Shown here piece after piece: positions 5,235-43,409 of a stretch of DNA of 64,000 nucleotides. The notes beneath the pieces were generated by a model. That model saw only the letters and a program-made list of their open reading frames with translations, was not told the DNA's origin and ran no database searches. A program made the position numbers and the translations under genes. The first letter of the stretch is position 1. The number at the start of each line of letters is the position of its first letter. The stretch covers positions 1,860,001 through 1,924,000 of the forward strand of contig NZ_CP028426.1 in the NCBI RefSeq assembly GCF_003010915.2, read 5' to 3'. The stretch comes from Gulosibacter molinativorax. GTDB taxonomy: Bacteria; Actinomycetota; Actinomycetes; Actinomycetales; Microbacteriaceae.

Positions 5235-5364
5235 TGTGCTGCTCCAGGTCTGCGTCGTCGGGTCTCTTGCGGATACTCGCGGTTCGGTCAGCGCCTACCT
5301 ACGTTCCGAGCCAGCCTACGGAGCGAACCTCAAACAGTTGTTGAGAGTGCGCAGGATCCTTGGA

Positions 5365-5420
5365 ACTTTCGACGGGATCTTGAGCCCGGTCGAAAGGTCC
5401 TTGAGCCCGCCGAAAGGGCT
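5365..5420. repeat. Palindromic GAGCCCG-CGAAAGG repeat units
   Basis: CTTTCGACGGG is followed by TTGAGCCCGGTCGAAAGG and then a second unit TTGAGCCCGCCGAAAGGGCT, so inverted and tandem copies of one short unit lie back to back. They end at the stop codon of the GNAT gene. This looks like a REP-type or terminator-like element. Confidence 0.5.
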
Positions 5421-5865
5421 ACAGGCGCTTCGCGAAGAACACGCGAGAGTAGCCGTCCTCGACCGCGCGGTGCGTCTCGACGTAGCCGCGCCGCGGGTAG
5501 TAGACGAGGTTCTCGGTCATCGCCTCATTGGTGAAGAGTCGGATCTCGCTAGCGCTCTGTGCCCGGGCGAACGTCTCGGCGTATGTCATGAGCTCGGCCC
5601 CGAGACCTCGGCCCTGCGCATCCGGAGCGACCGCAATGATGTCGAGGAGCACGTGATCAGAGCGAAGCTGCAGCACGATGAACCCGGCAACGCACGCGTC
5701 GCGTTCGGTCACCCAAACCTCGCCCGCATCTACAAGTGCCGCGTAGTCGGCCAGCATTGGGGCTGGCTGGGTGTCCATCCGCTCTAGATAGGGAGTGAAC
5801 GACGCCTCAGCGATCTCCCGAAGCCGCAGCACATCGTTGGACGTGGCTGGGCGAATCGGTGTCAT
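5419..5865 (-). CDS. GNAT family N-acetyltransferase
   Basis: This is a 148-residue single-domain GNAT protein that would transfer an acetyl group from acetyl-CoA to an amine. The acetyl-CoA binding motif A is clear in LLDIIAVAPDAQGRGLGAELM (V-x-P-x-x-Q-G-x-G-x-G), and the C-terminal VYYPRRGYVETHRAVED corresponds to motif B with the usual F/Y-x-x-x-G-F/Y pattern. The start at 5865 is chosen because the minus strand reads CGGAGGAACCACC directly before the ATG; the longer reading frame upstream runs into the neighbouring monooxygenase. The natural substrate is not recognisable. Confidence 0.85.
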   Translation of the reverse strand: MTPIRPATSNDVLRLREIAEASFTPYLERMDTQPAPMLADYAALVDAGEVWVTERDACVAGFIVLQLRSDHVLLDIIAVAPDAQGRGLGAELMTYAETFARAQSASEIRLFTNEAMTENLVYYPRRGYVETHRAVEDGYSRVFFAKRL

Positions 5866-5917
5866 GGTGGTTCCTCCGTGTGGGTCGAGGTGTGGAGATC
5901 TTGCATCCACAGGGAGG

Positions 5918-7249
5918 TTAGTTTCGCTCAGCGAGCCCAAGCAACCCGCGCAGCGTCGCGTCTTCCGGGTACGCATCCCGCAGTGCGCCGCGCACCCGCA
6001 ACGCGGGGGCGAGCTCGTCGCGCACGCGCCGAAACTCGGCCCGGTTACTGACTTGCATGATGAACCCTTCGGCCGCACCGGCGCGCTGCCACTCGACCAT
6101 CTCATCAGCGATCTCTTCGCCCGTGCCAGCGAACACTAGGCGGTCGCGGCCGAGCAGTCGCTCGACCGACTCGCCGAGCGTTCGCCCCGCATCCCGATCT
6201 TCGGTGAGGTGCTCGAAGAGCCACGTGCCCTCGTTGACGTGGCCGCGCGCGATATCTCGATCGGTGATGGTGGATGCGTCGCCCACCTCGATCTCCCGCT
6301 CGATCGCCCGCGAGACGCGGCCACGCAACTCGTCGAGCGCGCCGTGCCGCACGAGGTACTCGCGAGCGGCCTCGTCGGCCCGACCCGGCGCATCCGCGAA
6401 CGCGATCATGACCTTGATGTAGAGCTTCGGTTCCGGTCGGTCGCTCCCAGCCATCGCACCCCGAATCCCCTCGCGGTACGCCAATGCATCCTCAATCGTC
6501 GTCTGCATCCCGAACACGCAATCGGCGCTGTGTGCCGCGAGCGCCATGCCGGGAGCCGATTGGCCCGCCTGAAAGATGACCGGCTCGCCCTGCGGCGAGC
6601 GCTCGATGTTGAGCGGCCCCGCGACCGAAAAGTGCTCGCCCCGGTGATTCAGCGTGTGGACCTTGCTCTGATCAAGGAAGGTCCCCGACGCGCGGTCCCG
6701 AGGGAACGCATCCGCCTCGTAGCTGCGCCAGAGCGCGCGAACGACGTCGATCGCCTCGGTTGCCCGCGCGTACCGGGTCTCGTGGTCGCGCTGCGCGTCG
6801 AGGCCGAAGTTCCGCGCGGCCCGGTCCCCGAGGGAGGTCACCACGTTCCACCCCGCGCGACCGCGGCTGAGGTGATCCAGCGACATGAGCATCCGCGCGA
6901 GGTTGTACGGCTCTTGATACGACGTCGAGAACGTGCCGACGAGCCCGATGTGGCTGGTGACGCCCGCGAGGAAGGACAGCGCCGAAAGCGGCTCGAACCG
7001 CGAGAGATAGTGCGCGGGGCTGTCGAGGTCGACGAACACGGCATCGGCGATGAAGAGGAAGTCGAACGTCGCCTGCTCAGCGATCTGCGCGACCTCGCGA
7101 TACCAGTCCGGGCTCACGGATGCGTTGGTCGGCTCGCTCGGGTCAAGCCAGGCCCGTTCGTCGTCGGGCGCTCCGGATGCGGTGAGCATGGCACCGAGGT
7201 GGAGTGGCGGAAGGGCGTCTGGTTGCGTGGCCGACTCGCGAGAACTCAT
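5918..7249 (-). CDS. LLM-class flavin-dependent monooxygenase, second NtaA-type paralogue
   Basis: The 443-residue protein belongs to the same luciferase-like family as the gene at 1419-2858. It shows LSRGRAGWNVVTSLGDRAARNFG and HRGEHFSVAGPLN then PVIFQAGQSAPGMALAA, the flavin and substrate pocket signatures. Such enzymes oxygenate sulfonates, aminocarboxylates or pyrimidine-type substrates with reduced FMN supplied by a partner. It lies upstream of the GNAT gene on the same strand with a 52-bp gap, so co-transcription is possible. The C-terminal region is more divergent than in its neighbour. The substrate is unknown. Confidence 0.86.
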   Translation of the reverse strand: MSSRESATQPDALPPLHLGAMLTASGAPDDERAWLDPSEPTNASVSPDWYREVAQIAEQATFDFLFIADAVFVDLDSPAHYLSRFEPLSALSFLAGVTSHIGLVGTFSTSYQEPYNLARMLMSLDHLSRGRAGWNVVTSLGDRAARNFGLDAQRDHETRYARATEAIDVVRALWRSYEADAFPRDRASGTFLDQSKVHTLNHRGEHFSVAGPLNIERSPQGEPVIFQAGQSAPGMALAAHSADCVFGMQTTIEDALAYREGIRGAMAGSDRPEPKLYIKVMIAFADAPGRADEAAREYLVRHGALDELRGRVSRAIEREIEVGDASTITDRDIARGHVNEGTWLFEHLTEDRDAGRTLGESVERLLGRDRLVFAGTGEEIADEMVEWQRAGAAEGFIMQVSNRAEFRRVRDELAPALRVRGALRDAYPEDATLRGLLGLAERN

Positions 7250-7333
7250 TTGTTCATTGTCTCACCGGCGCTGCGAGTGGCAGACAACACGGGCGCCCGC
7301 CGAACTGGGACGCCCGCCTGCCAACTCGTTGGC

Positions 7334-7879
7334 TTACTCGCGGCCAACCTTGAACGCGCGGATGACCTGCAGCACGCCCAGCACGACGAGCGAGATACCG
7401 AGCATCCACCACAGCGCGACGACATAGAGGGGCGAGAAGAGCAGCACCAGACCGGCAAGGATGCTGATCACGGCAAAGATTGCCGGCCACACCTTCGAAG
7501 TCGCGTGATGCAGAGTCGACAACGCCATGACGCCTTCCGCGATCCAGAGGATGCCAACCATGATGCCGAGGAAGATCATGAGCCACGCGGTCGTGGCGCC
7601 GAGGTTGAGGATCGCGATCACTGCGCCGATGAGGAAGAGCAGACCGAGCAGGATATTGCCGACTCGGGCCCAGCCGCCCCGCTCCTTTGCCCAGATGCCG
7701 ACGCCGACGTAGACGAGCCCGATGAAGAACGCGTAGGCCGCGATTATCCACGTCAGCGCCATCGCGGTGCGGTCTGGCCACACGAGAATGAGCGCACCGG
7801 CGATGATCGCCAGGAGGCCACCGACCCCGAGCACCACGCGAATGTTCTGCAACCAAGATTTGTTCGTGTTGTTGGGCAT
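7334..7879 (-). CDS. HdeD-family (DUF308) membrane protein
   Basis: The protein has 181 residues and about six hydrophobic spans arranged in pairs, for example VVLGVGGLLAIIAGALILVW near residues 15-34 and IFAVISILAGLVLLFSPLYVVAL near 135-157. Short loops and the internally repeated pattern of paired helices fit the HdeD/DUF308 family, whose E. coli namesake is an acid-resistance membrane protein. The ATG at 7879 follows AAAGG at good spacing. The gene stands alone, with a long regulatory gap upstream. The family is clear; a role in acid stress is only carried over from the name. Confidence 0.85.
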   Translation of the reverse strand: MPNNTNKSWLQNIRVVLGVGGLLAIIAGALILVWPDRTAMALTWIIAAYAFFIGLVYVGVGIWAKERGGWARVGNILLGLLFLIGAVIAILNLGATTAWLMIFLGIMVGILWIAEGVMALSTLHHATSKVWPAIFAVISILAGLVLLFSPLYVVALWWMLGISLVVLGVLQVIRAFKVGRE

Positions 7880-8252
7880 ATTCAGAACCTTTCACGGCGC
7901 GTTGGCGCTCTGCGTGTCATGACGTCGAGTTCGTTAACCCCAAGCTACGCCCCAATGGAACCGAGTGCCATTGAAACGCGCGCGCCGTTTTCCCGCTTAG
8001 TCGGGAATTTTCGCGAATGTCGCCGCGATTTTCTCGGCCGGTAACTTGCCCCGCAAGACGGCGCCAGTGTGTACTCCAGGATCCAAGCGATAGTTTTCTT
8101 GAGCGATCGCTCAAACTTCGGCTAGGGTCGACGGCGAACGCTCGGAAAGGCAAGCGTTCAATCGCTCAGCGCCGAGCATTCACGGGCTCCGAGGAAGAGA
8201 TCGGGGCCTCAAGTGCTCGGTGTCGACCCAATCGATACCGCAGGGAGTAAGC
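7880..8252. other. 373-bp gene-free region, divergent promoters
   Basis: No convincing ORF is present. The gap separates the divergent HdeD-like and SnoaL-like genes and must hold both promoters. Its one clear feature is the 16-bp palindrome at 8099-8114. Confidence 0.6.
8099..8114. promoter_or_regulatory. Perfect 16-bp palindrome, probable repressor operator
   Basis: TTGAGCGATCGCTCAA is a perfect palindrome. Its left end TTGAGC could serve as a -35 with TAGGGT at 8123-8128 as -10 (18-bp spacing). The size and symmetry suit a TetR-type operator upstream of the SnoaL-like gene. No TetR gene is in the window. Confidence 0.5.
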
Positions 8253-8648
8253 ATGACCACGAACGCCGACAACGTCGCCGCCCACTATCAAGCCGCCGGT
8301 AAGCAGGACCTGCCAGGGATGCTCGCAATCCTCACCCCTGAGACGGCATGGACGGAGGCCGCGGGGTTCCCGACTGCGGGCACCTATGTCGGTCCGGATG
8401 CAATCGTCGAAAACGTGTTTGGTGCGCTCCAGGCCAACTGGGACAACTGGGACGTCAACATCGCCGAACTCGTTGAGCAGGGGGACGTCGTCGTGGCGAT
8501 CGGCGCATACACCGCGACGAACAAGGCGACCGGTAAGTCGATGCACGCTCGCACGACGCACGTCTGGCGATTCGAGGATGGCGTTGCCGTTTCGTTCGAG
8601 CAGATCGCCGACTCCGCGATGGTTCGCGCGGCCATGACCGACGACTAG
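8253..8648 (+). CDS. SnoaL-like/NTF2-like nuclear-transport-factor-fold protein
   Basis: The 131-residue protein has the SnoaL-like pattern: an N-terminal amphipathic helix (NVAAHYQAAGKQDLPGMLAILT), then alternating strands with EGDVVVAIGAY-like and HVWRFEDGVAVSFEQIAD segments near the end. Such proteins form a cone-shaped alpha+beta pocket and act as isomerases, hydrolases or ligand binders. The ATG at 8253 is preceded by CAGGGAGTAAGC, a good ribosome site. A palindromic operator lies about 140 bp upstream, so expression is probably regulated. The ligand is unknown. Confidence 0.78.
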   Translation: MTTNADNVAAHYQAAGKQDLPGMLAILTPETAWTEAAGFPTAGTYVGPDAIVENVFGALQANWDNWDVNIAELVEQGDVVVAIGAYTATNKATGKSMHARTTHVWRFEDGVAVSFEQIADSAMVRAAMTDD

Positions 8649-8698
8649 TCGCACGCGCCGGCCGCCAAAGCCGCCACCATTGCCGATATCGCTCGCCC

Positions 8699-8809
8699 TT
8701 GCCCGCACTTCGGCAATGGCTAGCCACATCGACCCGGGCAGCGACCCTGCGAGCGGGCAGCCCCTGCCCGTAGCGCACGTCATTGCCTGCACTTCGGCAA
8801 CGACAAGCC
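8699..8809. repeat. Two direct repeats, each with an internal short hairpin
   Basis: TTGCCCGCACTTCGGCAA at 8699 and TTGCCTGCACTTCGGCAA at 8783 are near-identical. Each contains TTGCC and GGCAA as a small inverted repeat and is followed by a related tail ending in AGCC. They lie between the convergent SnoaL-like and pdxT genes and could end transcription or bind a protein. Confidence 0.45.
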
Positions 8810-8850
8810 CTACGAGCAAGGGTCACGCCAGCGACACACTTCGATTACCG

Positions 8851-9489
8851 CTATCCGACAAATGACAGCAGCCGCTGGTGCAGCGTCGTGTCACGCGTGA
8901 GCTCCGGGTGGAAGGATGCGCCGAGCACCTTCCCCCGCTCCACACCGACAATCGCGTCGCCGTAGTGCGCCATGACGCGCGTCTCCGCGCCATCCACCGA
9001 CACGATCTGCGGGGCACGGATAAACGCGGCGCGGATCTCGCCCCACTCGGTGCCAAGAGTGGCTTCGGCCGACTCAACCTGGGGCCCGAACGCGTTTCGG
9101 TTCACGGTGATATCGAGGATGCCCAGGGTCTGCTGCCCGGGCGCGGGATTCTCGAGTCGCTTCGCGAGCAGGATGAGCCCGGCACACGTTCCCAGCGTCG
9201 GTAACCCGGCCTCGACCTGCTCACGGATGGGCGCATCCAGCCCGAACATGCGGGCGAGGCGATCGATCACGGAAGATTCCCCGCCGGGCAGGATGAGCGC
9301 ATCCACTCGGGCGCCGTCTGGGCCGACGAGGTCGGCGGGCTTGCGGATCTGGACCGCGTGCGCGTCGAGAGATTCGACGAGATCGGCATGCTCGCGTACG
9401 CCACCCTGCAGACCGAGCACGCCGACGGTCGGGGCTCCCGTGGAAAACGCGGGAGCCCCGATGCCGGCCTGCGAATCGGCGATTACCAT
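8851..9489 (-). CDS. pdxT: Pyridoxal 5'-phosphate synthase glutaminase subunit
   Basis: PdxT hydrolyses glutamine and channels ammonia to PdxS, which makes pyridoxal 5'-phosphate by the DXP-independent route. The 212-residue protein has [13 protein letters not shown] at the start of the domain, LILPGGESS, the nucleophile Cys102 in [14 protein letters not shown], and the His194/Glu196 pair in GASFHPELT, which completes the triad. Its start ATG at 9489 overlaps the pdxS stop by 7 nt (ATGGTAA), a classic translationally coupled pair that supports 1:1 subunit production. About 18 extra residues precede the conserved core, so initiation a little further in is possible. Confidence 0.97.
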
Positions 9490-10424
9490 CCGCGCTCGGC
9501 GAGACGGTGCGGTGCCGGGAGGTCGGCGACGTTGATGCCGACCATCGCCTCGCCGAGGCCACGCGAGGCCTCCGCGATTGCGGCGGGGTCGTTGTACTGC
9601 GCGGTGGCGCGGACGATCGCGGCCGCACGCTTGGCGGGATCGCCCGACTTAAAGATGCCGGAACCGACGAAGACACCGTCGGCGCCGAGCTGCATCATCA
9701 TCGCGGCATCGGCGGGTGTCGCGACACCACCGGCGACGAACATCACGACGGGCAGCTCGCCCGTCTCGGCGACCTGCTTGACGAGTCCGTACGGAGCCTG
9801 GAGATCCTTGGCCGCAACGTAGAGCGCATCCGGCTCGACCGCGTTCAGCGCCTGGAGGCGAGCGATCTCGCCCTTGATCGTGCGGATGTGCTTCATTGCT
9901 TCCGAGACATCGCCCGTACCAGCCTCACCCTTCGAGCGAATCATTGCCGCACCCTCGGTGATGCGGCGCAGTGCCTCACCCAGGTTCGTCGCGCCACACA
10001 CGAACGGCACCTTGAAGCCGTGCTTGTCGATGTGGTTCACGTAGTCGGCGGGGCTCAGCACCTCGGACTCGTCGATGTAGTCGACGCCGAGCTCCTGAAG
10101 GATCTGCGCCTCGACGAAGTGGCCGATGCGGGCCTTCGCCATGACCGGGATCGAGACGGTGTCGATGATGCCGTCGATAAGGTCGGGGTCGCTCATGCGG
10201 GCGACACCGCCCTGCGCACGAATGTCGGCGGGGACGCGCTCGAGGGCCATGACGGCGACGGCACCGGCATCTTCAGCGATGCGCGCCTGCTCGGGGGTCA
10301 CGACGTCCATGATGACGCCGCCCTTGAGCATGTCGGCGAGGCCCGTCTTTACGAGCGGAGTCCCCGTCTGCGACGACGCTGCTGCGGACGAGGAGGAAGT
10401 TTCGTTAGTAGTCATGAGTGCCAT
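9483..10424 (-). CDS. pdxS: Pyridoxal 5'-phosphate synthase lyase subunit
   Basis: PdxS condenses ribose 5-phosphate, glyceraldehyde 3-phosphate and ammonia to PLP and assembles as a dodecamer with PdxT. The protein is highly conserved: [67 protein letters not shown] and the glycine-rich phosphate site [29 protein letters not shown] are all present. A low-complexity Ser/Ala leader of about 25 residues precedes the core. Two starts are possible, ATG 10424 or ATG 10415 (MTTNETSSS); neither has a strong ribosome site. It heads the pdxST operon and faces pdxR across a short promoter region. Confidence 0.97.
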
Positions 10425-10454
10425 CCTGAGCCTGCGATTGGACTATTTCCAGAT

Positions 10455-10484
10455 CCACTTTTACACCACTTCAATAGACCACTT
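10455..10484. promoter_or_regulatory. Three AAGTGG boxes in the pdxS-pdxR promoter region (probable PdxR sites)
   Basis: CCACTT occurs at 10455, 10466 and 10479, that is three direct boxes at 11- and 13-bp spacing. On the minus strand two read AAGTGGTCTA and AAGTGGTGTA. From memory, the actinobacterial PdxR motif is close to AAAGTGG-W-CTA, so these are likely activator sites for pdxST and autoregulatory sites for pdxR. Confidence 0.7.
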
Positions 10485-10500
10485 ATGCAACACTGATTGG

Positions 10501-12051
10501 ATGCGCTCCACGTCAATTCCCGAGGTCCCGATCGAGCTCGATCGCGACGGCCAGCTCTCGCTCCCGCTGCAGCTCGCGCGGGCCGTTCGGGAGCTGATCG
10601 ATCGCGGCGCGCTTCTCCCCGGCGACGAGCTCCCTTCGACCCGAGCCTGGGCCGCGAGGCTCGGCGTCTCCCGCGGCACGGTGGTCTCGGCGTATGAGCA
10701 GCTCACCGCCGAGGGCTACCTCACCGGCGAGCGCGGCTCGGCAACGCGGATCAACCCGCGGCTGCGGCAGACGCATCCCGCGCACGAGCCTGCTGCGGCG
10801 TCGCCCACGCGGAAGAACGACGCCCGCACCACCGCGACTGCTTCCGCAGCGGCGTCCACATCACACGATAGGACGCACAGCCACGTGCCCCACCCCATCA
10901 AGCCGGAGGCAGCACCCTCGCACCTGCGCCCTCACGACGCCATAGACATGCTGCCCGGTCGCCCCGCGACCGACTGGCTCCACACGCCAGCGTGGCGTCG
11001 AGCGTGGCGCGTCGCGGCGGATGCGCAGCTCGCCTCGATCCCGCTGGCCGGCGACGATCGACTCCGCGGCAATTTGGCCGAGCACTTTCGGCGGATGCGC
11101 GGCCTCGCCCGCGATCCGGATCAGTTTCTCGTCACCGCCGGCGGGCGCGAAGGCCTCGCCCTCATCATTCAGACGCTTGCCTCGGAGCTGGAAGGCGGAC
11201 GCGCGCTTCGGGTGGGAGTCGAGTCGCCTGGCTACCCTTCGCTCCGCCGCACCGCGCAGCGACTTGGTGCGGAACTCGTCGCGCTCGAGGTCGACCACGC
11301 GGGCCTGCGCACCGACATGCTGCCCGTCGGACCGAAGCGCCCCGATCTCGTGATCGTCACCCCGAGCCACCAGTATCCGCTCGGCGGCTCGCTGCCGATC
11401 GACCGGCGCATCGAGCTCCTCGAATGGGCCCGCCGCGAACAGGTGCTGATCGTCGAGGACGACTACGACTCGGAACTGCGCTACGTCGGCCAGCCCCTCC
11501 CCACCCTCACCGCCCTCGACGACAGCCGGGACGGCAGCGTCGCGCTCCTCGGCACGTTCTCCACCACCGTCGCACCCAGCCTGGGCATTGGAATGCTCTG
11601 CGTGTCAGATGCGCTTCGTGAGCGACTTCTCGCCACACGCCGGGATCTCGGGACGCCGGTGTCGGCACTCGTGCAGCACGCGTTCGCCGAGTACCTCGCG
11701 TCGGGTGAGCTACGCCGGCACACCGCAAGGATGCGCCGCACCTATCGACAGCGACGAGGCCTCGTCCTCGAGGCGCTCGGCGACGTCTCGGGAGCCGCGG
11801 TGTCGCCGATGGACGGCGGCCTCCATGCGGTGATTCGCACGAAGCTACCCGAAGCGAAGGTGCTCGCGGCCTGCGAGAAGGCGGGGGTGCTGGTCTCCCC
11901 CGGCGCCGACTATTGGCGACAGACCGGCCGCGACCCGCAGCAGGATGGCGACGCTCGCGGAACCATCGTGATCGGCTACGCGCACCTCAGCTCGGATGCG
12001 CTGAGCGAGGGACTGCGCAGGCTTCGCGGAGCGCTCGGCGGCTGCGACTAG
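10501..12051 (+). CDS. pdxR: MocR-type transcriptional regulator of PLP synthesis
   Basis: The 516-residue protein joins an N-terminal GntR winged helix (PLQLARAVRELIDRGALLPGDELPSTRAWAARLGVSRGTVVSAYEQLTAEG) to a class I aminotransferase-like domain from about residue 150. The PLP lysine region is not obvious by eye; SLGIGMLCVSDALRERLLATR lies in the equivalent stretch. An unusually long Ala/Thr/His-rich linker separates the two domains. PdxR proteins sense PLP and activate pdxST; the divergent position and the AAGTGG boxes agree. The start at ATG 10501 has no Shine-Dalgarno, so a very short or absent leader is likely; an ATG-open frame continues upstream through pdxS but that is not coding. 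Confidence 0.92.
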   Translation: MRSTSIPEVPIELDRDGQLSLPLQLARAVRELIDRGALLPGDELPSTRAWAARLGVSRGTVVSAYEQLTAEGYLTGERGSATRINPRLRQTHPAHEPAAASPTRKNDARTTATASAAASTSHDRTHSHVPHPIKPEAAPSHLRPHDAIDMLPGRPATDWLHTPAWRRAWRVAADAQLASIPLAGDDRLRGNLAEHFRRMRGLARDPDQFLVTAGGREGLALIIQTLASELEGGRALRVGVESPGYPSLRRTAQRLGAELVALEVDHAGLRTDMLPVGPKRPDLVIVTPSHQYPLGGSLPIDRRIELLEWARREQVLIVEDDYDSELRYVGQPLPTLTALDDSRDGSVALLGTFSTTVAPSLGIGMLCVSDALRERLLATRRDLGTPVSALVQHAFAEYLASGELRRHTARMRRTYRQRRGLVLEALGDVSGAAVSPMDGGLHAVIRTKLPEAKVLAACEKAGVLVSPGADYWRQTGRDPQQDGDARGTIVIGYAHLSSDALSEGLRRLRGALGGCD

Positions 12052-12170
12052 CCACGGCAGCCGAGAGCTCGAGATGTCTGAGTTATCCACATTTGCTGCC
12101 CGGCGCCGAGGTTATCCACGGAAACGAATTGCATGCGCCGATCGGCCCGGAATCGTCGCACGATAGGCGC

Positions 12171-12614
12171 ATGACAACGACAGCGCCGAACAACCTCGCC
12201 GACCGCATCCTCAACACCGACGCCAAGCTTTACGAAACGCTCTCGCTCATTTTCGACACCCCCGACGAACGAGCTGTGTGGATCTTCTTCCTCGACGAGG
12301 ACCACCGCGTCACCGGGCCCGTGATGCCGCTCGAAAACTACCCGGCCACGCCCAACACGCTGGTCGACGAGCCCCCGTTTGGCCGCGTGCGGTTCGCCAG
12401 CGCATTGGCCTCGCGGCTCGGGGACATGCTCGATTTTGTGGAGGGCTCGACCCTCGTTCTCGTCTGGGAGGACACCGACGCCGGCGATCCCGACACGATC
12501 GAGTGGGCACGCGCGCTCGCGATCGCGGCCAAGGAAGCCGAGGTCTCGCTCCGAGCACAGTTCGCGCTGAACCGACACGGATTCTGGCAGATCACACCCG
12601 ATGACCTTGCATAG
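12171..12614 (+). CDS. Hypothetical protein, probably cytosolic
   Basis: The 147-residue acidic protein has no signal peptide or membrane span. It contains AVWIFFLDEDHRVTGPVMPLENYP, a run of predicted strands, followed by STLVLVWEDTDAGDPDTIEWARALAIAAKEA, and would suit a small alpha/beta domain. This style is seen in actinobacterial conserved proteins of unknown function that resemble DUF4192 or JAB-like RadC/DisA accessory domains, but I cannot assign a family. The ATG at 12171 follows GATAGGCGC with no Shine-Dalgarno, which suggests a leaderless mRNA. It precedes the toxin-antitoxin pair by 46 bp. Confidence 0.7.
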   Translation: MTTTAPNNLADRILNTDAKLYETLSLIFDTPDERAVWIFFLDEDHRVTGPVMPLENYPATPNTLVDEPPFGRVRFASALASRLGDMLDFVEGSTLVLVWEDTDAGDPDTIEWARALAIAAKEAEVSLRAQFALNRHGFWQITPDDLA

Positions 12615-12629
12615 TGCACCCAGCCTTCC

Positions 12630-12660
12630 GGTCAAATCGATCAATTGGTATGATTTGACC
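12630..12660. promoter_or_regulatory. Toxin-antitoxin promoter with inverted-repeat operator
   Basis: GGTCAAAT at 12630 and ATTTGACC at 12653 form a perfect 8-bp inverted repeat with a 15-bp spacer. A -10 box TATGAT (12649-12654) lies inside it, six bases before the antitoxin ATG, so the transcript is probably leaderless. The operator covers the promoter, as expected for antitoxin autorepression. Confidence 0.7.
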
Positions 12661-12930
12661 ATGAACGAGAGCCTGCCGATTTCCGTCGCCAAGCAGCAGC
12701 TGGGCACGCTCGTCGACCGGGTCCACCTTGCCCACGAGACTGTCTACCTCACGAAACATGGTCGTCGCGTGGCCGCGATCATCGATGCGGATACGCTCGA
12801 CGGCATCCTCGAGCGACTCGAGGACTTCGAGGATGCCACTGCCGCCAACGCCGCGCGTCGCGAAATGGCAGAGACCGGTGCGAGCCCGATTCCGTGGGAC
12901 GAGGTCAAAGCCGAGCTCGGTCTCTCGTGA
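12661..12930 (+). CDS. Phd/YefM family antitoxin
   Basis: The 89-residue protein begins SLPISVAKQQLGTLVDRVHLAHETVYLTKHGRRVAAIID, the typical Phd/YefM DNA-binding fold in which a dimer binds the operator and the flexible C-terminus wraps and neutralises the toxin. The C-terminal half (ETGASPIPWDEVKAELGLS) is the expected toxin-binding tail. The ATG at 12661 abuts the inverted-repeat operator and probably lacks a leader. It overlaps the downstream toxin start by 4 nt (GTGA), giving translational coupling. The pair probably represses its own promoter. Confidence 0.92.
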   Translation: MNESLPISVAKQQLGTLVDRVHLAHETVYLTKHGRRVAAIIDADTLDGILERLEDFEDATAANAARREMAETGASPIPWDEVKAELGLS

Positions 12931-13184
12931 CCTATCGCGTTGTGCTGTCGCCCGCCGCGGCGCGAGAACTACGCAAGCTTGACGCCCATACGAAGCGACG
13001 CATCCAAGCCGCCATCGAACTCCTCACCGAGACCCCTCGTCCGCCGGCCGCCAAACGACTCGTCGATAGTGGGGGCGCATGGCGAGTGCGCGTCGGCGAG
13101 TACCGCATCGTTTACGACATCGATGACGGCGAACTCGTCGTGCTCGTCCTCCACACACGCCATCGCCGAGACAGCTACCGCTGA
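12927..13184 (+). CDS. RelE/ParE family toxin
   Basis: The 85-residue protein starts at GTG 12927, overlapping the antitoxin stop. VTYRVVLSPAAARELRKLDAHTKRRIQAAIELL, then AKRLVDSGGAWRVRVGEYRIVYDIDDGELVVLVLHTRHRRDSYR, matches RelE toxins, with the conserved R-V-G-E-Y-R-I-V-Y strand and the basic C-terminus used for ribosome-dependent mRNA cleavage. Arg and Tyr residues of the RelE active site are present, which favours RelE (mRNA interferase) over ParE (gyrase). The longer frame from 12894 lies inside the antitoxin gene and is rejected. Confidence 0.92.
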   Translation: MTYRVVLSPAAARELRKLDAHTKRRIQAAIELLTETPRPPAAKRLVDSGGAWRVRVGEYRIVYDIDDGELVVLVLHTRHRRDSYR

Positions 13185-13274
13185 CGAGCTGCGTGATCAG
13201 TCAGCGCCGTGACTATTGCTGCACGGTCAACGAGGTTTCGGAACGCCTGGCGTGTGGCGGTCAGCCCTCGCGTT

Positions 13275-13303
13275 GTGCCAGGCGGCCGGTTGCCGCCTGG
13301 CAC
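13275..13303. terminator. Bidirectional hairpin terminator
   Basis: GTGCCAGGCGGC and GCCGCCTGGCAC form a perfect 12-bp stem with a 5-nt loop. It lies between the convergent relE-type toxin gene and the RamB-like gene and has no U-run, as is common in actinobacteria. Confidence 0.7.
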
Positions 13304-13310
13304 CTAGCGA

Positions 13311-14780
13311 TCAACCCTCGAGCGGCGCGTGGCGATCGATGAACTCAAGCATCTGCACGCGGTCGACGCCGGTAAAGGTGCCCGAAGGCATCGCCGCGAG
13401 CAGCGAGGCGTTGAGCCGAGCACTCGGCCAAACCGCGCCGTCCCAGCGTTCCGAGAGCGCCGCATCCGGTTCGCGACAGCACGACGGTTGGGGGCAGGTC
13501 GAGGTGAAGCGGCGCTTCGTCTCCCTGCCCCGGAACCACTTGGCATGCTCGAAGCTCGTGCCCACAGAGATCGAGAATTCACCGGCGGAGCCCGATTCGA
13601 TGTGCGAGGTGCACCAGTATGTGCCGGCTGGCTTGTCGGTGTACTGGTAGAACGGCGTCATCCGGTCCTCCGTCCGGAAAACCTGCTGCGCGCTCCACCA
13701 GCGGCACACGATCTGCCCCTCGACCGCGCCAAGCGCATCCGTCGGGAACTGCACGTCGTCGTTCTGATAGGCCTTCAAGATGGTGCCGCTCGAGTGCATC
13801 TTGAGGAAGTGCACCGGAATACCGAGGTGCTCAGTCGCGAGATTGCTGAAGCGGTGCCCAGCCGTCTCGTAGCTCACGGCGAACTCGTCGCGGAGGTCCT
13901 CGACCGAAAGCTCGTGGTCCGTTTTGGCCTCTGACAGGAACTTCAGCGCGCTCGCCTCGGGCACGAGGAGCGCACCCGCGAGGTAGTTCGTCTCAACCCG
14001 CTGCCGCAGTAGCTCGCCATAATCGTTCGGCTCACCCTTCCCGAGCTCGTGCGCCGCGAGCGCCTGCAGCACGGTCGATCGCGAGTCGGATGCGCCCCGA
14101 CCGATCGGCAGGTAGATCCGCTTGTTCTCGGTGTCGGTGATGCTGCGGGCGGAGCGTGGCAGGTCGCGAACCGAGTGCAACGTGAACCCGAGCGCGGCGG
14201 CCAGCTCGCCTACGCGACGCTGCGAAAGCGGTCCGCGGCGATAGTTGATGTGCTTGAGGAGATCCGCGGCGATCGCTTCGAGCTCGGGGTAATAGTTCCC
14301 GGCTCGCGATTGCTCCGCACGCAGCTGACCGTTGACGCGCCGGGCCTCCTCTGGCGTGGCCGCGCGCTCTTCGTGCAGGCGGCGCAGCTCTTCGTGCAGC
14401 CCCAAGATGGTTTCGATCGCCTCGTCGCTCAGTGTCTTGCGCACCGGCAGCTCAGGCAGCGGCAGACTTTTGTAGAGCGCACCCTGCTGCGCCCGCTCCA
14501 GCGCGATCTCCAGCTCGGCCCGCCGCGAAGGCGCCTCGGTGCTGAGCAGGTCATCCACCGATACCGCGAGGATGCGCGCCAGGCGCTGTAGCTCGCCGAG
14601 CTTCAATTCGCGGCGACCATTTTCAATCACGGAGACCTGCGAAGGGGCGCGGCCGAGCCGTTCCGCGAGTTCATTGAGGGAGAGACCCCGGGCGCGGCGG
14701 TGCGCCCGGATGCGTTTACCAATAAGCAGTGGATCGTACACGTCTTCATCGTGCTCGAGCACCACGTCGTTGTGTGCCAT
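13311..14780 (-). CDS. ramB: RamB-like XRE/ScfR transcriptional regulator of acetate metabolism
   Basis: The 489-residue protein has an N-terminal Cro/CI helix-turn-helix (KRIRAHRRARGLSLNELAERLGRAPSQVSVIENGRRELKL, about residues 20-60), a central IrrE/ImmA-type domain near residues 230-300, and a C-terminal ScfR domain with paired cysteines (TYWCTSHIESGS, RRFTSTCPQPSCCREP). RamB and relatives sense short-chain acyl-CoA or related signals and control glyoxylate-cycle genes. The metallopeptidase motif, usually HELGH, reads HELGK, so peptidase activity is doubtful. It is divergent from aceA with a RamB-like inverted repeat between. The ATG at 14780 is the first compatible with the domain start. 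Confidence 0.9.
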   Translation of the reverse strand: MAHNDVVLEHDEDVYDPLLIGKRIRAHRRARGLSLNELAERLGRAPSQVSVIENGRRELKLGELQRLARILAVSVDDLLSTEAPSRRAELEIALERAQQGALYKSLPLPELPVRKTLSDEAIETILGLHEELRRLHEERAATPEEARRVNGQLRAEQSRAGNYYPELEAIAADLLKHINYRRGPLSQRRVGELAAALGFTLHSVRDLPRSARSITDTENKRIYLPIGRGASDSRSTVLQALAAHELGKGEPNDYGELLRQRVETNYLAGALLVPEASALKFLSEAKTDHELSVEDLRDEFAVSYETAGHRFSNLATEHLGIPVHFLKMHSSGTILKAYQNDDVQFPTDALGAVEGQIVCRWWSAQQVFRTEDRMTPFYQYTDKPAGTYWCTSHIESGSAGEFSISVGTSFEHAKWFRGRETKRRFTSTCPQPSCCREPDAALSERWDGAVWPSARLNASLLAAMPSGTFTGVDRVQMLEFIDRHAPLEG

Positions 14781-38679: not shown

Positions 38680-39321
38680 CTACGCCGAAGCGCTCACTGC
38701 CTCGTGTCCCTGCAGCGCCGAAACGACGAGGTTGCTCTTCTCGAGTGCGGCGCCGTCCACGACGGCCGATGCCCACGCATCCGTCGTCGCCACTGCGGCC
38801 CAGTTCGAGTGCAGGAGCGCCATGAGGGTTTCGTGCACCTGCTGGGCGGATGCACTGCCCGCCTCATTCGCGATATTGATCGCGCCGGTCGCATCCGACA
38901 GCACCTCGACGTTCAAGCCGAGCGGTTCGGCGCCCGCGGCCGATGCGAGCACGCAGTTGTTCGTCATGAATCCGACGAGCGTGACCGTGTCGATCTCGTG
39001 GTCGCGTAGCCACGCCACCAGGGCGTCGTCGTTGAAGACGCTGGCGAGCGCCTTCACCGAGTGGAATGCGGCATCGCCCGAACGCTCGGCGATCTCCGGC
39101 TGCAGTTGGACGCCCTCTGAGCCCGCGGCAAACACGGGCGCACCCTCGGGGTACTCGTGCTGCACCGTGATGACGGGAATCTCCGCGGCAATCGCGGCGT
39201 CGATTGCGCGCACGGCATTCGCGACGGCCGCCTCCCGCGGCGGGTACTGAATCTCGAGCGGCCCGTTCGCGTACTCGTTCTGCACGTCGATCACGATGAC
39301 GGCGCGTCGTGGCTGAGTCAT
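38680..39321 (-). CDS. Isochorismatase-family cysteine hydrolase
   Basis: The 213-residue protein has the family triad: Asp in AVIVIDVQNEYANG, Lys in the ALASVFNDDAL/KALAS region, and the nucleophilic Cys in VTLVGFMTNNCVLASAAGA. Such hydrolases act on nicotinamide, N-carbamoyl compounds or isochorismate-like substrates. It is divergent from a GlxA-type regulator starting at 39444, a frequent pairing in which the regulator controls the hydrolase. The ATG at 39321 has GAGGAGTATCA before it. Confidence 0.9.
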   Translation of the reverse strand: MTQPRRAVIVIDVQNEYANGPLEIQYPPREAAVANAVRAIDAAIAAEIPVITVQHEYPEGAPVFAAGSEGVQLQPEIAERSGDAAFHSVKALASVFNDDALVAWLRDHEIDTVTLVGFMTNNCVLASAAGAEPLGLNVEVLSDATGAINIANEAGSASAQQVHETLMALLHSNWAAVATTDAWASAVVDGAALEKSNLVVSALQGHEAVSASA

Positions 39322-39443
39322 TGATACTCCTCATTGCTGTGTCGGATTTCGTCGCGTCCTCGCAACGATGCCCCTAGTTTGGCCGTGCGGGGCAGCGTAA
39401 TGTGAGTGGCAGAAAGGCACAGTATCGATGAGATTGGGACAAG

Positions 39444-40406
39444 ATGCGGATCGTGATCTATGCGTTCGATGGGATCACGACGTTTCATCTCTCGGCTCCA
39501 CTGCTGACGTTCGGCGAGGTGAGCAAGCGAGGACTCGCGGCTGACTGGGACACCACCGTCTGGACCGCGACAGGCTCGACCGTGAGCACTTCCGAGGGAC
39601 TCAAGATCGACGATCTGGCCGGGATCGAGGCCGCGGCCGACGCCGACATGCTTGTCTTCCCTTCCTGGCCAGCCGACCTCCCCGAGCCAGACTCGAGCAT
39701 CCTCGGGCTCATCCGGAACGCCCACGCGCGTGGCGTGCCGATCGCCGGTTTCTGCCTGGGCGCGCTCCCGGTAGTCGCGAGCGGCATTCTCGACGGTCGC
39801 AGCGCGGCAACGCACTGGGCCGCGACGGATTCACTCGCGACGCGATATGCATCCGTCGAGATGCGCGACGATGCGCTCTACATCGACCACGGCGACGTGA
39901 TCACCTCCGCAGGCACGGCCTCAGCGCTGGATGCGTGCCTTCACATCGTGCGCGAGCGGCTCGGCACCGAGGCCGCGACGCAGATCGCGCGGCACATCGT
40001 CATCGCGCCCCACCGCGACGGCGATCAGGCCCAGTTCATCGATCGCCCCGTGCCGGATGCGCCGGATAGTCCCCTGGGGCAGACGATCGAGTGGGCACTC
40101 GCGAACCTCGACAAGCCGCTGTCGGTCGAGGATCTCGCGGGCCGCGCATCCATGAGCCCGCGAAACTTCTCGCGTCGCTTTCGCGAGCTCACCGGCTCGA
40201 GCCCGGCGAAGTGGCTGCAGGCGAAGCGGCTCGCCGAGGCCCGCCGACTCCTCGAGGGCACGACGTGGAGCATCGCGCGCGTCGCGGAAACCTGCGGCTT
40301 CAACTCCCCGGTGACCTTCCGCCAGAACTTTCTCGCGCGGTACTCGACGACGCCGACGTCGTACCGGCACCGGTTCGCGGTGTCAGCCTCGCTTGCAACC
40401 CGATGA
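39444..40406 (+). CDS. GlxA-type transcriptional regulator (DJ-1/PfpI domain plus AraC HTH)
   Basis: The 320-residue protein begins with a class I glutamine-amidotransferase-like/DJ-1 domain (MRIVIYAFDGITTFHLSAPLLTF; IAGFCLGALPVVASGIL with the elbow Cys) and ends with an AraC helix-turn-helix pair (VEDLAGRASMSPRNFSRRFRELTGSSPAKWL and SIARVAETCGFNSPVTFRQNF). It probably activates the divergent isochorismatase-like gene. From position 39859 to 40382 its sequence is duplicated almost exactly at 42100-42623. The final eight residues (VSASLATR) lie beyond the duplication and may not be the original end. Confidence 0.92.
   Translation: MRIVIYAFDGITTFHLSAPLLTFGEVSKRGLAADWDTTVWTATGSTVSTSEGLKIDDLAGIEAAADADMLVFPSWPADLPEPDSSILGLIRNAHARGVPIAGFCLGALPVVASGILDGRSAATHWAATDSLATRYASVEMRDDALYIDHGDVITSAGTASALDACLHIVRERLGTEAATQIARHIVIAPHRDGDQAQFIDRPVPDAPDSPLGQTIEWALANLDKPLSVEDLAGRASMSPRNFSRRFRELTGSSPAKWLQAKRLAEARRLLEGTTWSIARVAETCGFNSPVTFRQNFLARYSTTPTSYRHRFAVSASLATR
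39859..40382 (+). repeat. 524-bp direct repeat, copy 1 (inside the GlxA-type gene)
   Basis: This segment matches 42100-42623 with no gaps and about four base differences that I could find, roughly 99% identity. It covers the last half of the regulator gene, including the AraC domain. The offset between copies is 2241 bp. Confidence 0.93.
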
Positions 40407-40509
40407 GACGAGTAATGCTGCTATTCCCGATGAATGGACCAGTCCCTTACCGCCCTCGGCAGTTACCTGCTCTGGCGACGCCGGGCCTCAACGCGCAGCA
40501 CTCTTGGGG

Positions 40510-40641
40510 AAATCGGCAACAATGCCCGGGGAAATCCGCAGCGACTCCTGGGTAAATCGGCAGCATCACCCGGGCAAATCGGCAGAATTAGCCGGGCAAA
40601 TCGGCAATGACGGCCGGGGAAATCGGCAACGCTGCCGTAAG
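40510..40641 (+). repeat. Six 22-bp direct repeats upstream of the ATPase gene
   Basis: AAATCGGCA (once AAATCCGCA) begins at 40510, 40532, 40554, 40576, 40598 and 40620, exactly 22 bp apart, each followed by a variable 6-8 bp and ending CCGGG or CTGGG. A degenerate further unit lies just before. The last unit reaches the -10 TAAGAT (40638-40643). Two helical turns per unit put all sites on one face, as in iterons or multi-site operators. Confidence 0.9.
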
Positions 40642-40650
40642 ATCTGACTT
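40638..40650 (+). promoter_or_regulatory. -10 box of the ATPase gene, leaderless start
   Basis: TAAGAT is followed by seven bases and then the ATG, so transcription probably starts at the ATG itself. The box overlaps the last 22-bp repeat, so a protein bound there would cover the promoter. Confidence 0.6.
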
Positions 40651-41907
40651 ATGAGCAACAACATTCTTCCGCGCAACGTGACACCACTCGCGTTAGAAAC
40701 ACTCTCGGACACGCCAATCACGGTGATCAGTGGAGCTCGACAGGTCGGTAAGAGCACGCTCATGCGAGAGCTGCTCAGCAAGTTCGATGCTCGGGTCTTC
40801 AACCTCGATGACCTTTCAGTGCGCGCCGCGGCGGAAGCCGATCCAGACGAGTTTGCCAACCAGTTCCCGCAGGGCCTCCTTGCGATAGACGAGATACAAC
40901 GTGTCCCGCAATTGCTCACTTCGCTCAAGGCATCCGTCGATCGAGATCGCCGCCCGGGACGTTTTCTCGTGACGGGTTCGGCCGATCTTCTGTCTCTTCG
41001 TGGGTCGCAAGATTCGCTCGCTGGTCGAGCCGAGACAATTCGGCTTGAGGGCTTCAGCCAGGATGAAGTTGCAGGGCGCTCTGCCGACTTCGCTTCCTTC
41101 GTGTGGTCGCTTCCTGACGGACGCGAAACATCAGACTACGAAGGATTCTCCCGCCGAAAATACCTCGAGATCATCACCACTCCGGGGTTTCCGGAGGCTC
41201 GAGCACGCAGCGGTCGCGCGCGCGAGCGTTGGCTAGCCAACTACGTTGAACGACTACTTGCAAAAGATTCAACCGACATCACCGGGATCCAGTATCCCGA
41301 TCGACTTCGTCAGCTACTCAGCGTCGTTGCTGCCCGGAACTCAGGCGAGTTCGTCGCGTCACGAATCGGTCGAGAAATAGATGTGCCAGCTCGATCCATC
41401 CCTGCCTATCTTGACGCACTCCGGAGTGTATTCCTCGTTAGATCGATCGCAGGTTGGTCTAACAATGTCGCTTATCGCGCCGTCGCCACACCGAAAGTCA
41501 TGATTGCGGACACCGGTCTTGCTGCATTCCTGGCCGACGTAGACGCCGAAGGGCTCGAGAAGCCCGTCTCCGCCACCATTGCGGGAGGACTTGTCGAGGG
41601 TTTCGTGGTCGCGGAGCTTGAGCGTCAGCGCGCGTGGAGCGCGAAACCAACCCGCATGTATCACTATCGCGATCACCACAATCGGGAAGTTGACATCATT
41701 CTGGAGGATCGTCGCCGGGACGTTGTCGGTATCGAGGTCAAATCGACTTCAAATCCGAGACAAGACGACTTCAAGGGCCTCCATTATCTCCGGGAAAGAT
41801 TATCGGATCGATTCATTGCAGGGGTGGTGGTTCATACCGGTGAACGGGCATTGTCGTTTGGAGATCGGCTTTGGGCTTTGCCGATTGCGACGTTATGGAA
41901 CGTATAA
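40651..41907 (+). CDS. AAA_14/DUF4143 ATP-binding protein
   Basis: The 418-residue protein has a Walker A (VISGARQVGKSTLMRELL, near residues 23-40), a Walker B (GLLAIDEIQRVPQLL), sensor-like FLVTGSADLLSLRG and the C-terminal DUF4143 region with YHYRDHHNREVDIILED then VVGIEVKSTS, which resembles a PD-(D/E)xK nuclease-like core (D, E-V-K). The family is widespread, often solitary, and its function is poorly known. Codon use is less GC-rich than its neighbours. It lies between the two copies of the glxA 3' end and behind six 22-bp repeats, so it looks acquired and self-regulated. A good ribosome site is absent; leaderless translation is likely. Confidence 0.9.
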   Translation: MSNNILPRNVTPLALETLSDTPITVISGARQVGKSTLMRELLSKFDARVFNLDDLSVRAAAEADPDEFANQFPQGLLAIDEIQRVPQLLTSLKASVDRDRRPGRFLVTGSADLLSLRGSQDSLAGRAETIRLEGFSQDEVAGRSADFASFVWSLPDGRETSDYEGFSRRKYLEIITTPGFPEARARSGRARERWLANYVERLLAKDSTDITGIQYPDRLRQLLSVVAARNSGEFVASRIGREIDVPARSIPAYLDALRSVFLVRSIAGWSNNVAYRAVATPKVMIADTGLAAFLADVDAEGLEKPVSATIAGGLVEGFVVAELERQRAWSAKPTRMYHYRDHHNREVDIILEDRRRDVVGIEVKSTSNPRQDDFKGLHYLRERLSDRFIAGVVVHTGERALSFGDRLWALPIATLWNV

Positions 41908-42006
41908 GGGGCAGCCACGCGCGTGATTCGAGCATGATGGCATCGCTGGGATGCTTCGGAGTCGCTCACCCATATCGTGGACAATGGCTCGCGTCGAAGG
42001 AGTCGC

Positions 42007-42099
42007 ATGCAAAAGGTCGTAGCAAGGCAGCTCCGCTCCCAATTGGACGCGGAGTGGCTCCCAACGCTGCCGTCTGACTGGCAACGGGCCACGCTGTTT
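42007..42099 (+). pseudogene. 5' remnant of an unidentified gene cut by the duplication
   Basis: ATG 42007 follows a strong ribosome site (GAAGGAGTCGC) and opens a frame MQKVVARQLRSQLDAEWL, then PTLPSDWQRATLF, for 31 codons up to the exact start of the glxA repeat at 42100. From there the frame runs out of register through the regulator copy. This looks like a real gene start whose remainder was replaced by the duplicated segment. The family is not recognised. Confidence 0.45.
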
Positions 42100-42623
42100 A
42101 GATGCGCGACGATGCGCTCTACATCGACCACGGCGACGTGATCACCTCCGCAGGCACGGCCTCAGCGCTGGATGCGTGCCTCCACATCGTGCGCGAGCGG
42201 CTCGGCACCGAGGCCGCGACGCAGATCGCGCGGCACATCGTCATCGCGCCCCACCGCGACGACGATCAGGCCCAGTTCATCGATCGCCCCGTGCCGGATG
42301 CGCCGGATAGTCCCCTGGGGCAGACGATCGAGTGGGCACTCGCGAACCTCGACAAGCCGCTGTCGGTCGAGGATCTCGCGGGCCGCGCATCCATGAGCCC
42401 GCGAAACTTCTCGCGTCGCTTTCGCGAGCTCACCGGCTCGAGCCCGGCGAAGTGGCTGCAGGCGAAGCGGCTCGCCGAGGCCCGCCGACTCCTCGAGGGC
42501 ACGACGTGGAGCATCGCGCGCATTGCGGAAACCTGCGGCTTCAACTCCCCGGTGACCTTCCGCCAGAACTTTCTCGCGCGGTACTCGACGACGCCGACGT
42601 CGTACCGGCACCGGTTCGCGGTG
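42100..42623 (+). repeat. 524-bp direct repeat, copy 2
   Basis: It is the near-identical second copy of 39859-40382. Differences seen include GGC to GAC (Gly to Asp in HRDxDQ) and GTC to ATT (Val to Ile in SIARxAE). Both copies have the same orientation. Confidence 0.93.
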
Positions 42624-42662
42624 CCGTCCACGACGCGACGAGATCACATAATTTCCCGTTAG
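42102..42662 (+). pseudogene. C-terminal fragment of the GlxA-type regulator (AraC domain only)
   Basis: The 186-residue open frame is identical to the last half of the 39444-40406 product except for two residues and the tail (VPSTTRRDHIISR instead of VSASLATR). It lacks the amino-terminal half of the DJ-1 domain and has no obvious ribosome site, so it is probably not a functional regulator. It might be the original 3' end of the gene, because the sequence after it runs on naturally to the convergent aquaporin gene. Confidence 0.75.
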
Positions 42663-42686
42663 CGTCCGAGCCAGCTCGGGTCCACC

Positions 42687-43409
42687 TCAGTTCGTGTCCA
42701 CGTCAGCTCGCGTTCGTGTCATAGCACCGAATACCAGCGCGGCCACTATCCCTGCGAGGAGCTCGGCGACCACATAGACGGGCCATTCCGCCCAGTTCAC
42801 CTCGCCACCAAGCAGTGCCTGAACGATCATCGGCCCGGTGTTACGCGCCGGGTTGATGGATCCTCCAGTGGTTGAACCGATCACGATGATGATCGCGAAC
42901 ACGGCAAAGCCGATCGAGACTCCAGCCATGCTCGGGGGCGCCTTCCGGTGAATCGCCCCGAATACGACCAGCACGAGAATGAACGTCCCGATGAACTCCG
43001 CAGCAAACGATTGCCACATTGGGATGCCGCCCGACGACGCAATGCCAAGCCCCGCCTCACTCGCAAACATGCCGAGTGAGGCAATGATGGCAAACGCGCC
43101 AATGACCGCGCCGATGACTTGGGCCACGATGTACCCCGGCACTTGCTTCCAAGGAAACTTTCCCCCGGCCGCGAGGCCGACCGTCACCGCCGGATTAATG
43201 TGACTTCCCGACACGAATCCGAAAATGTAGACGACGATCATCACGATCGCGCCGAATGCAAGCGCGATAAATCCAAGGGTTGCCGCGTTAAACGCTTCGT
43301 CGCCCTGCGCCAGGATGAGCGCCGGGATCGACCCGACACCGATGTAAACCAGCAACGCTGTTCCGACCAATTCGGCCACTAGGCGCCGCCAAAATGCGTA
43401 CTCGTCCAT
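42687..43409 (-). CDS. MIP/aquaporin family channel
   Basis: The 240-residue protein has six membrane helices and both half-helix NPA motifs, VSGSHINPAVTVGLA and TGGSINPARNTGPM. It belongs to the major intrinsic protein family, which conducts water or small neutral solutes such as glycerol. The Arg after the second NPA is present. The start at ATG 43409 follows AAAAGGAGTCTC; the longer upstream frame is discarded. It lies downstream of the formaldehyde-dehydrogenase-like gene on the same strand, separated by two strong hairpins. Confidence 0.92.
   Translation of the reverse strand: MDEYAFWRRLVAELVGTALLVYIGVGSIPALILAQGDEAFNAATLGFIALAFGAIVMIVVYIFGFVSGSHINPAVTVGLAAGGKFPWKQVPGYIVAQVIGAVIGAFAIIASLGMFASEAGLGIASSGGIPMWQSFAAEFIGTFILVLVVFGAIHRKAPPSMAGVSIGFAVFAIIIVIGSTTGGSINPARNTGPMIVQALLGGEVNWAEWPVYVVAELLAGIVAALVFGAMTRTRADVDTN

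Follow-up and report, generated by a model that had tools for sequence, protein, structure and literature searches.

A predicted PDC-S01 ATPase-nuclease gene with an upstream repeat array lies between two copies of a regulator gene 3′ end in Gulosibacter molinativorax

Introduction

Some integrative elements enter the 3′ end of a gene and restore that gene, and serial addition at such a site is possible. The locus described here lies in Gulosibacter molinativorax, in a stretch of 64,000 nucleotides (positions 1,860,001 to 1,924,000 of contig NZ_CP028426.1, assembly GCF_003010915.2) that is called the window throughout and in whose coordinates positions are given unless another locus is named. 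A gene for a GlxA-type regulator is followed by an insert carrying one ATPase-nuclease gene, predicted to belong to the family PDC-S01, and then by a second copy of the regulator's 3′ end. As with the 3′-end integrative elements, an intact gene stands on one side and a 3′ fragment on the other; unlike them, the insert is without an integrase, the repeat is 524 bp long instead of a short att core, and the host gene was a different one at each site examined. The arrangement is real, has parallels elsewhere, and surrounds a known but little understood family of defence candidates.

According to PMC12988326, PDC-S01 is an ATPase fused to a PD-(D/E)xK superfamily domain and ranks fourth among prokaryotic defences, its dataset holding 29,494 bacterial and 9,986 archaeal systems, and most candidates of this kind still await validation. 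The closest described regulatory arrangement is that of RptR, portrayed in excerpts of PMC12255303 as a separate repressor with three 9-bp direct repeats, holding TAGCTA, in the promoter of a defence island. As far as those excerpts go, direct repeats at a defence-locus promoter are common to both cases, whereas here the sites are 22 or 23 bp in period and variable between lineages, and no separate regulator was identified. At the level of the protein, residues ~1-300 of the structure model share the STAND fold with the archaeal ATPases 2qen and 2fna, AVAST5/Avs5, NLR resistosomes and CED-4. In contrast to these STAND NTPases, the protein is small and carries a C-terminal DUF4143 nuclease domain, and the model has no long sensor domain.

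The regulator 3′ end is duplicated around a single-gene insert

The features of the locus are given below, with the source of each in brackets (ORF, open reading frame; HTH, helix-turn-helix).

39444..40406, + strand, intact GlxA-type regulator gene, 320 aa, DJ-1/PfpI and AraC HTH domains (ORF list, family search)
39859..40382, + strand, direct copy 1, the 3′ part of the regulator gene (520/524 against copy 2)
40383..42099, + strand, unique insert, 1717 bp (copy comparison)
40506..40628, + strand, six 13-bp cores GGGNAAATCGGCA with a period of 22 bp (repeat search)
40638..40643, + strand, TAAGAT, a −10-like hexamer starting 13 nt 5′ of the start codon (read from the sequence)
40651..41907, + strand, predicted PDC-S01 ATPase-nuclease gene, 418 aa, AAA_14, winged helix and DUF4143 (profile and structure model)
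41908..42099, + strand, right arm of the insert, start of an ORF interrupted by copy 2 (similarity searches)
42100..42623, + strand, direct copy 2 (520/524 against copy 1)
42102..42662, + strand, ORF of copy 2, AraC-type HTH domain alone, 186 aa (ORF list, family search)

Alignment of the two copies gave 520 identical bases of 524, ungapped and in the same orientation, at a start-to-start distance of 2241 bp. The original prediction, made from the letters of the window, had reported the pair in these terms, with about four mismatches and no gap, and its account of the DNA between them as six 22-bp repeats and one AAA_14/DUF4143 gene is likewise borne out. Identity of 99% over 524 bp is far beyond chance expectation. 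The four mismatches (39941, 40021, 40281 and 40283) leave one regulator codon silently changed, one encoding Gly or Asp, and one with two changes (GTC/ATT, Val/Ile). The stretch as a whole matches a single place in the two-contig genome, where the two copies are the only close matches to the regulator protein; the nearest other proteins found, from Saccharopolyspora and Streptomyces for example, are 67-68% identical. Long direct repeats are classic places for the mis-joining of an assembly. However, the copies have different flanks, and their four base differences and position inside a 3.47-Mb contig make an assembly artefact highly improbable.

Copy 1 stops 24 bp short of the end of the regulator gene, and the final seven codons and the stop codon of the intact regulator therefore derive from the insert. 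Copy 2 begins 2 bp 5′ of an in-frame ATG, and its 186-aa protein has a C-terminus unlike that of the intact regulator. In 14 regulator homologues, the C-terminus lies 3-7 residues past the last RF in 10 cases and 12-31 residues past it in four. The right edge of copy 2 (42618-42635) also matches 38747-38764, within a nearby isochorismatase gene, at 17 of 18 bases, which may be chance.

The insert is poorer in GC (57.9%) than the 64-kb window (63.4%) or the copy (69.3%). Outside the ATPase gene it consists of only 268 bp and 192 bp, and a recombinase gene thus does not fit. No transposase gene was seen in the insert, where each further listed ORF (a family scan was not made on these) overlaps either the ATPase gene or the repeat array; by the same argument from space no integrase lies between the repeats, though one may act from elsewhere. 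No inverted repeat among the 21 listed pairs of at least 16 nt links the insert ends at 40383 and 42099. The preference of the original prediction for host recombination over an integrase fits these small arms.

The 192-bp right arm matched none of the fetched loci at the DNA level, gave only weak translated matches and had no protein match on plasmids, and the insert DNA gave a single 73-bp match to plasmids. A plasmid replicon remnant was considered and rejected: the array is iteron-like, but the ATPase gene leaves no space in which a replication gene could lie. An RNA element was ruled out by the lack of any Rfam match at the gathering threshold in 39400-42700, and a tRNA attachment site by the lack of any detected tRNA in the window.

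The account that we favour, and hold with moderate confidence, is that an acquired PDC-S01 module was inserted at the regulator 3′ end by a host-type recombination that duplicated that end.

The insert encodes a predicted PDC-S01 protein

The PADLOC profile PDLC04790 (PDC-S01) matches the 418-aa protein with an E value of 4e-151 over profile positions 8-419 of 422, and this full-length match assigns the protein to PDC-S01, a single-gene phage-defence candidate. In its structure model a STAND-type ATPase is combined with a winged helix and with a nuclease of the PD-(D/E)xK type. The ATPase, helical and winged-helix domains are modelled in the STAND arrangement, which places the protein among the predicted STAND NTPases, and the predicted fusion of the ATPase to a PD-(D/E)xK-type nuclease is that expected of PDC-S01. 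Across 57 sequences, Asp348 and Lys364 are invariant and Glu362 is present in at least 90%; these three residues are presumably catalytic, on the pattern of the PD-(D/E)xK motif. The protein had no match in PHROG or NCBIfam.

The same genome holds a second ATPase gene (G000:C1:2400575-2401765), 29% identical and with a 23-bp array of its own (L135). Elsewhere, 16 DUF4143 matches each were counted in genomes G430 (0.7 Mb) and G414 (2.2 Mb), a heavy load of a single family.

A 22/23-bp repeat array precedes most long-subtype family members examined

Five of the six cores GGGNAAATCGGCA are exact and one has a single mismatch, at a spacing of exactly 22 bp, and exact paired cores occur at this locus only within the genome. 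When periods of 14 to 33 bp were compared over 260 bp upstream of each gene, the best period was 22 or 23 bp in 58 of 123 dereplicated relatives, against 13 of 117 downstream regions and 31 of 398 control ORFs (the control ORFs here and in the TANNNT test below were taken from those same loci and may include some that are not true genes). An enlarged set, in which 199 of 201 genes had sufficient upstream sequence, showed this period to depend on protein length: it was best for 75 of 97 genes encoding 405-440 aa (the long subtype), 10 of 94 encoding shorter proteins and two of eight encoding longer ones (Fisher's test, long versus short p = 6e-22, long versus control p = 3e-43). It was also best in 16 of the 20 newly added genes with sufficient flank. 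Of the 201 genes, 59 passed the array threshold; their arrays have about 13 conserved and 9-10 variable positions (0.91 versus 0.68, a comparison biased upward because the 13 core columns were chosen as each array's best conserved), and the median distance from array to start codon is 20 bp. By these comparisons the 22-bp repeats are a property of the ATPase gene family and not of this insertion; the original prediction was right that the cassette contains them, but overlooked that they go with the gene.

Of the 97 long-subtype genes, 47 have a TANNNT hexamer that starts 10-16 nt 5′ of the start codon, as against 59 of 598 control ORFs. Such a position points to a leaderless mRNA and would put the last repeat close to the −35 region. 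It must be set against this promoter reading that a sigma-70 consensus scan gave no site in the insert; neither a consensus promoter nor an intrinsic terminator was found in 40380-42110.

The sequence of the repeats evolves much faster than the protein. At 60-90% protein identity, 27% of 66 ordered pairs of cores share at least 11 of 13 positions, while above 90% identity six of six pairs do so. Since the spacing of the sites is kept while their sequence changes fast, selection for difference between copies is suggested. In three short-protein relatives from Bacteroidetes (L098, L099 and L124), the gene is instead flanked on both sides by a ~37-bp palindrome, TTTGACAAATACGGAATCTGATTCCGTATTTGTCAAA or a close variant.

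No earlier description of the upstream array was found in the open-licence literature searched, bioRxiv being outside this scope. The words palindrom, promoter, iteron and direct repeats are absent from the main text of PMC12988326, and its passages on PDC-S01 mention no upstream array. Two further points escaped the original prediction: the gene belongs to a family of defence candidates, and some of its relatives likewise stand between copies of an adjacent gene's end.

Gene-end repeats flank some other family members

Flanking direct repeats were sought by blastn on the same strand within 1.5 kb either side of each gene (E 1e-3); genes were deduplicated on their last 300 bp, which leaves close relatives such as L155, L165 and L166 as separate entries. 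Such repeats, 24 to 805 bp long across the cases, were found at 19 of 91 genes unselected for their flanks and at five of 172 other ORFs at the same loci (p = 3.7e-6). A further count gave 22 of 104 against 0 of 75; the count of 34/149 against 10/264 is inflated, as some genomes were chosen after a member had shown flank repeats. The regulator insertion appears to be one case of a wider pattern.

The individual parallels differ in the gene concerned, neighbouring genes being named from their translations and not by family search unless PDC-labelled or DUF4143. At L074, an exact 24-bp repeat, the very end of a uvrA-like gene, stands on both sides of a unit made up of a palindromic promoter and a PDC-S01 gene and nothing else. 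In Oligosphaera ethanolica (L205), an esterase-like gene flanks the PDC-S01 gene on both sides (805 bp at 89%). At L140, the end of a convergent msrA-like gene partly recurs beyond the DUF4143 ATPase gene, as one match of 48 bp (100%) and one of 114 bp (85%), and at L305 the 3′ end of another ATPase gene copy lies upstream of the array.

The most elaborate case is L299 (G416:C1:740000-759500), where an aminotransferase-like gene and three extra copies of its 3′ end extend over 4706-13903. The copies are separated, in order, by a Fic protein gene (PDC-S24), a DUF4143 ATPase gene and a gene for a secreted-looking protein, and a PDC-S01 gene follows the last of them. The 3′ ends are 75-86% identical to the reference copy (14-25% different), and the locus reads as a stack of single-gene modules. 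At another locus, L304 (reverse strand), a hairpin-like unit of 62-72 bp recurs near 5124, 6120 and 7762, around two ATPase genes and a PIN-type gene; these units, with gene type and hairpin judged by eye, resemble the spacers of a cassette row.

One version of the favoured explanation specifies the vehicle: a 2241-bp circle, carrying the regulator 3′ end from another strain, would have entered by a single crossover. The arrangement has exactly the form expected, as the original prediction had pointed out in proposing the circle, but a 524-bp target duplication would look identical. Two of the four differences share one codon (GTC/ATT), which looks more like two alleles than random drift and favours the two alleles that a circle from another strain would bring; four differences are, however, too few. 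The four differing aminotransferase-like ends at L299 similarly resemble serial additions. Conversely, neither a circle nor a donor in which the ATPase gene adjoins a regulator end of this kind was seen, and with so few differences between the copies the circle can be put forward only tentatively, as a minority possibility.

Filled and empty sites

The closest relative with flanks in hand is L136 in genome G221, whose protein is ~75% identical and whose array core is GTGAAATCCGCAA against GGGGAAATCGGCA. Its neighbours occur without the ATPase gene in three of four other genus genomes searched (G265, G171 and G109), and the insert is ~1536 bp. An operator-like sequence of ~24 bp, recognised by eye, lies at each end of the G221 insert; the empty sites of G171 and G109 have it once, and G265 has it twice.

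The pair of copies in G265, a relative of G221, without an ATPase gene between them bears on the possibility that a tandem duplication of the regulator end came first and the ATPase gene landed between the copies later by chance. Duplications are common. Yet flank repeats are commoner at family members than at control ORFs in the larger unselected set, if not in a second, small set, and this order of events is considered quite unlikely.

In Agrobacterium plasmids, a ~1.5-kb unit, 94-99% identical and with no other gene of its own, follows four different left flanks; its right flank is the same in two of these cases. Such a near-identical unit would also fit a module that inserted itself, its nuclease cutting the target at wide spacing and repair then duplicating a target stretch that differs in length between sites (24 bp at L074, 524 bp at the regulator). 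The L074 unit, promoter palindrome and gene inside an exact repeat, has this form, and its 24 bp are short for homologous recombination, which is the main argument for a self-made target duplication. The insert, however, is without a transposase or integrase, no inverted repeats join its ends among the listed pairs, the repeats range from 24 to 805 bp, and the L299 ends differ by 14-25%, as if they had arrived with the cargo instead of being copied in place. Self-insertion is judged unlikely.

At otherwise unrelated Agrobacterium and Rhizobium plasmid junctions, GTTCGATTCCCATCAAGGCG is shared or nearly shared (L165:3993-4013 and L166:3993-4013; empty sites L199, L200, L204, L162 and L164). Allowing at most three mismatches, it occurs 31 times on five of six plasmids, and its reversed control 0 times. 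GTTCGATTCCCATCAAGGCG may be a recombination site.

Proposed host-type recombination and a predicted function of the array

In the favoured account of host-type recombination at the regulator 3′ end, the insert would be a self-contained PDC-S01 module with one gene, complete with a promoter and an array of 22-bp sites of its own, and its composition and patchy occurrence point to horizontal acquisition. The duplication itself is observed, while the route, host-type recombination at the regulator 3′ end, is proposed. Insertion would have left the regulator complete save for a changed C-terminus, with the second 524-bp copy on the far side. A subsequent crossover from one copy to the other could remove the module, with a single regulator gene as the result. 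The array is most likely bound by the 418-aa protein itself or by a co-evolving partner. Binding would keep the gene switched off or in a poised state, and a trigger, presumably invading DNA, would free the nuclease to act on DNA.

Several observations weigh against this account. An empty site at the regulator was not found in 10 other genomes of the genus, in which the best regulator match was 36% identical. Copy 1 ends nine residues past the last RF and copy 2 ends 14 past it, and comparison with the 14 homologues favours neither as the ancestral end. The repeats are not 3′ ends in all cases, that at L301 being an hsdR-like 5′ end on both sides, and some of those counted are intergenic repeats, low-complexity DNA or palindromes; in a second small set the excess was not significant (4/20 versus 4/34). 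Between the Rhizobium plasmids L163 (filled) and L162 (empty), 2115 bp replace ~44 bp with no long duplication, and a LysR-like gene's 3′ part comes with the insertion. For proteins less than 45% identical, core similarity is little or not at all above that of shuffled sequence. Finally, binding of the array by the protein and the antiviral role are both predictions.

A broader and rather doubtful proposal is that PDC-S01 is a class of one-gene mobile modules that settle and stack at host gene ends, each with a lineage-specific array or palindrome. If this were true, the fast-changing 22/23-bp array of each lineage would be read by its own ATPase, and the gene-end copies would be re-usable homology for excision and re-entry. 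For the family as a whole, the array beside the start codon in most long-subtype members examined offers a defined DNA target for binding or switching, and the gene-end copies suggest a way in which modules of one gene might spread with no recombinase of their own.
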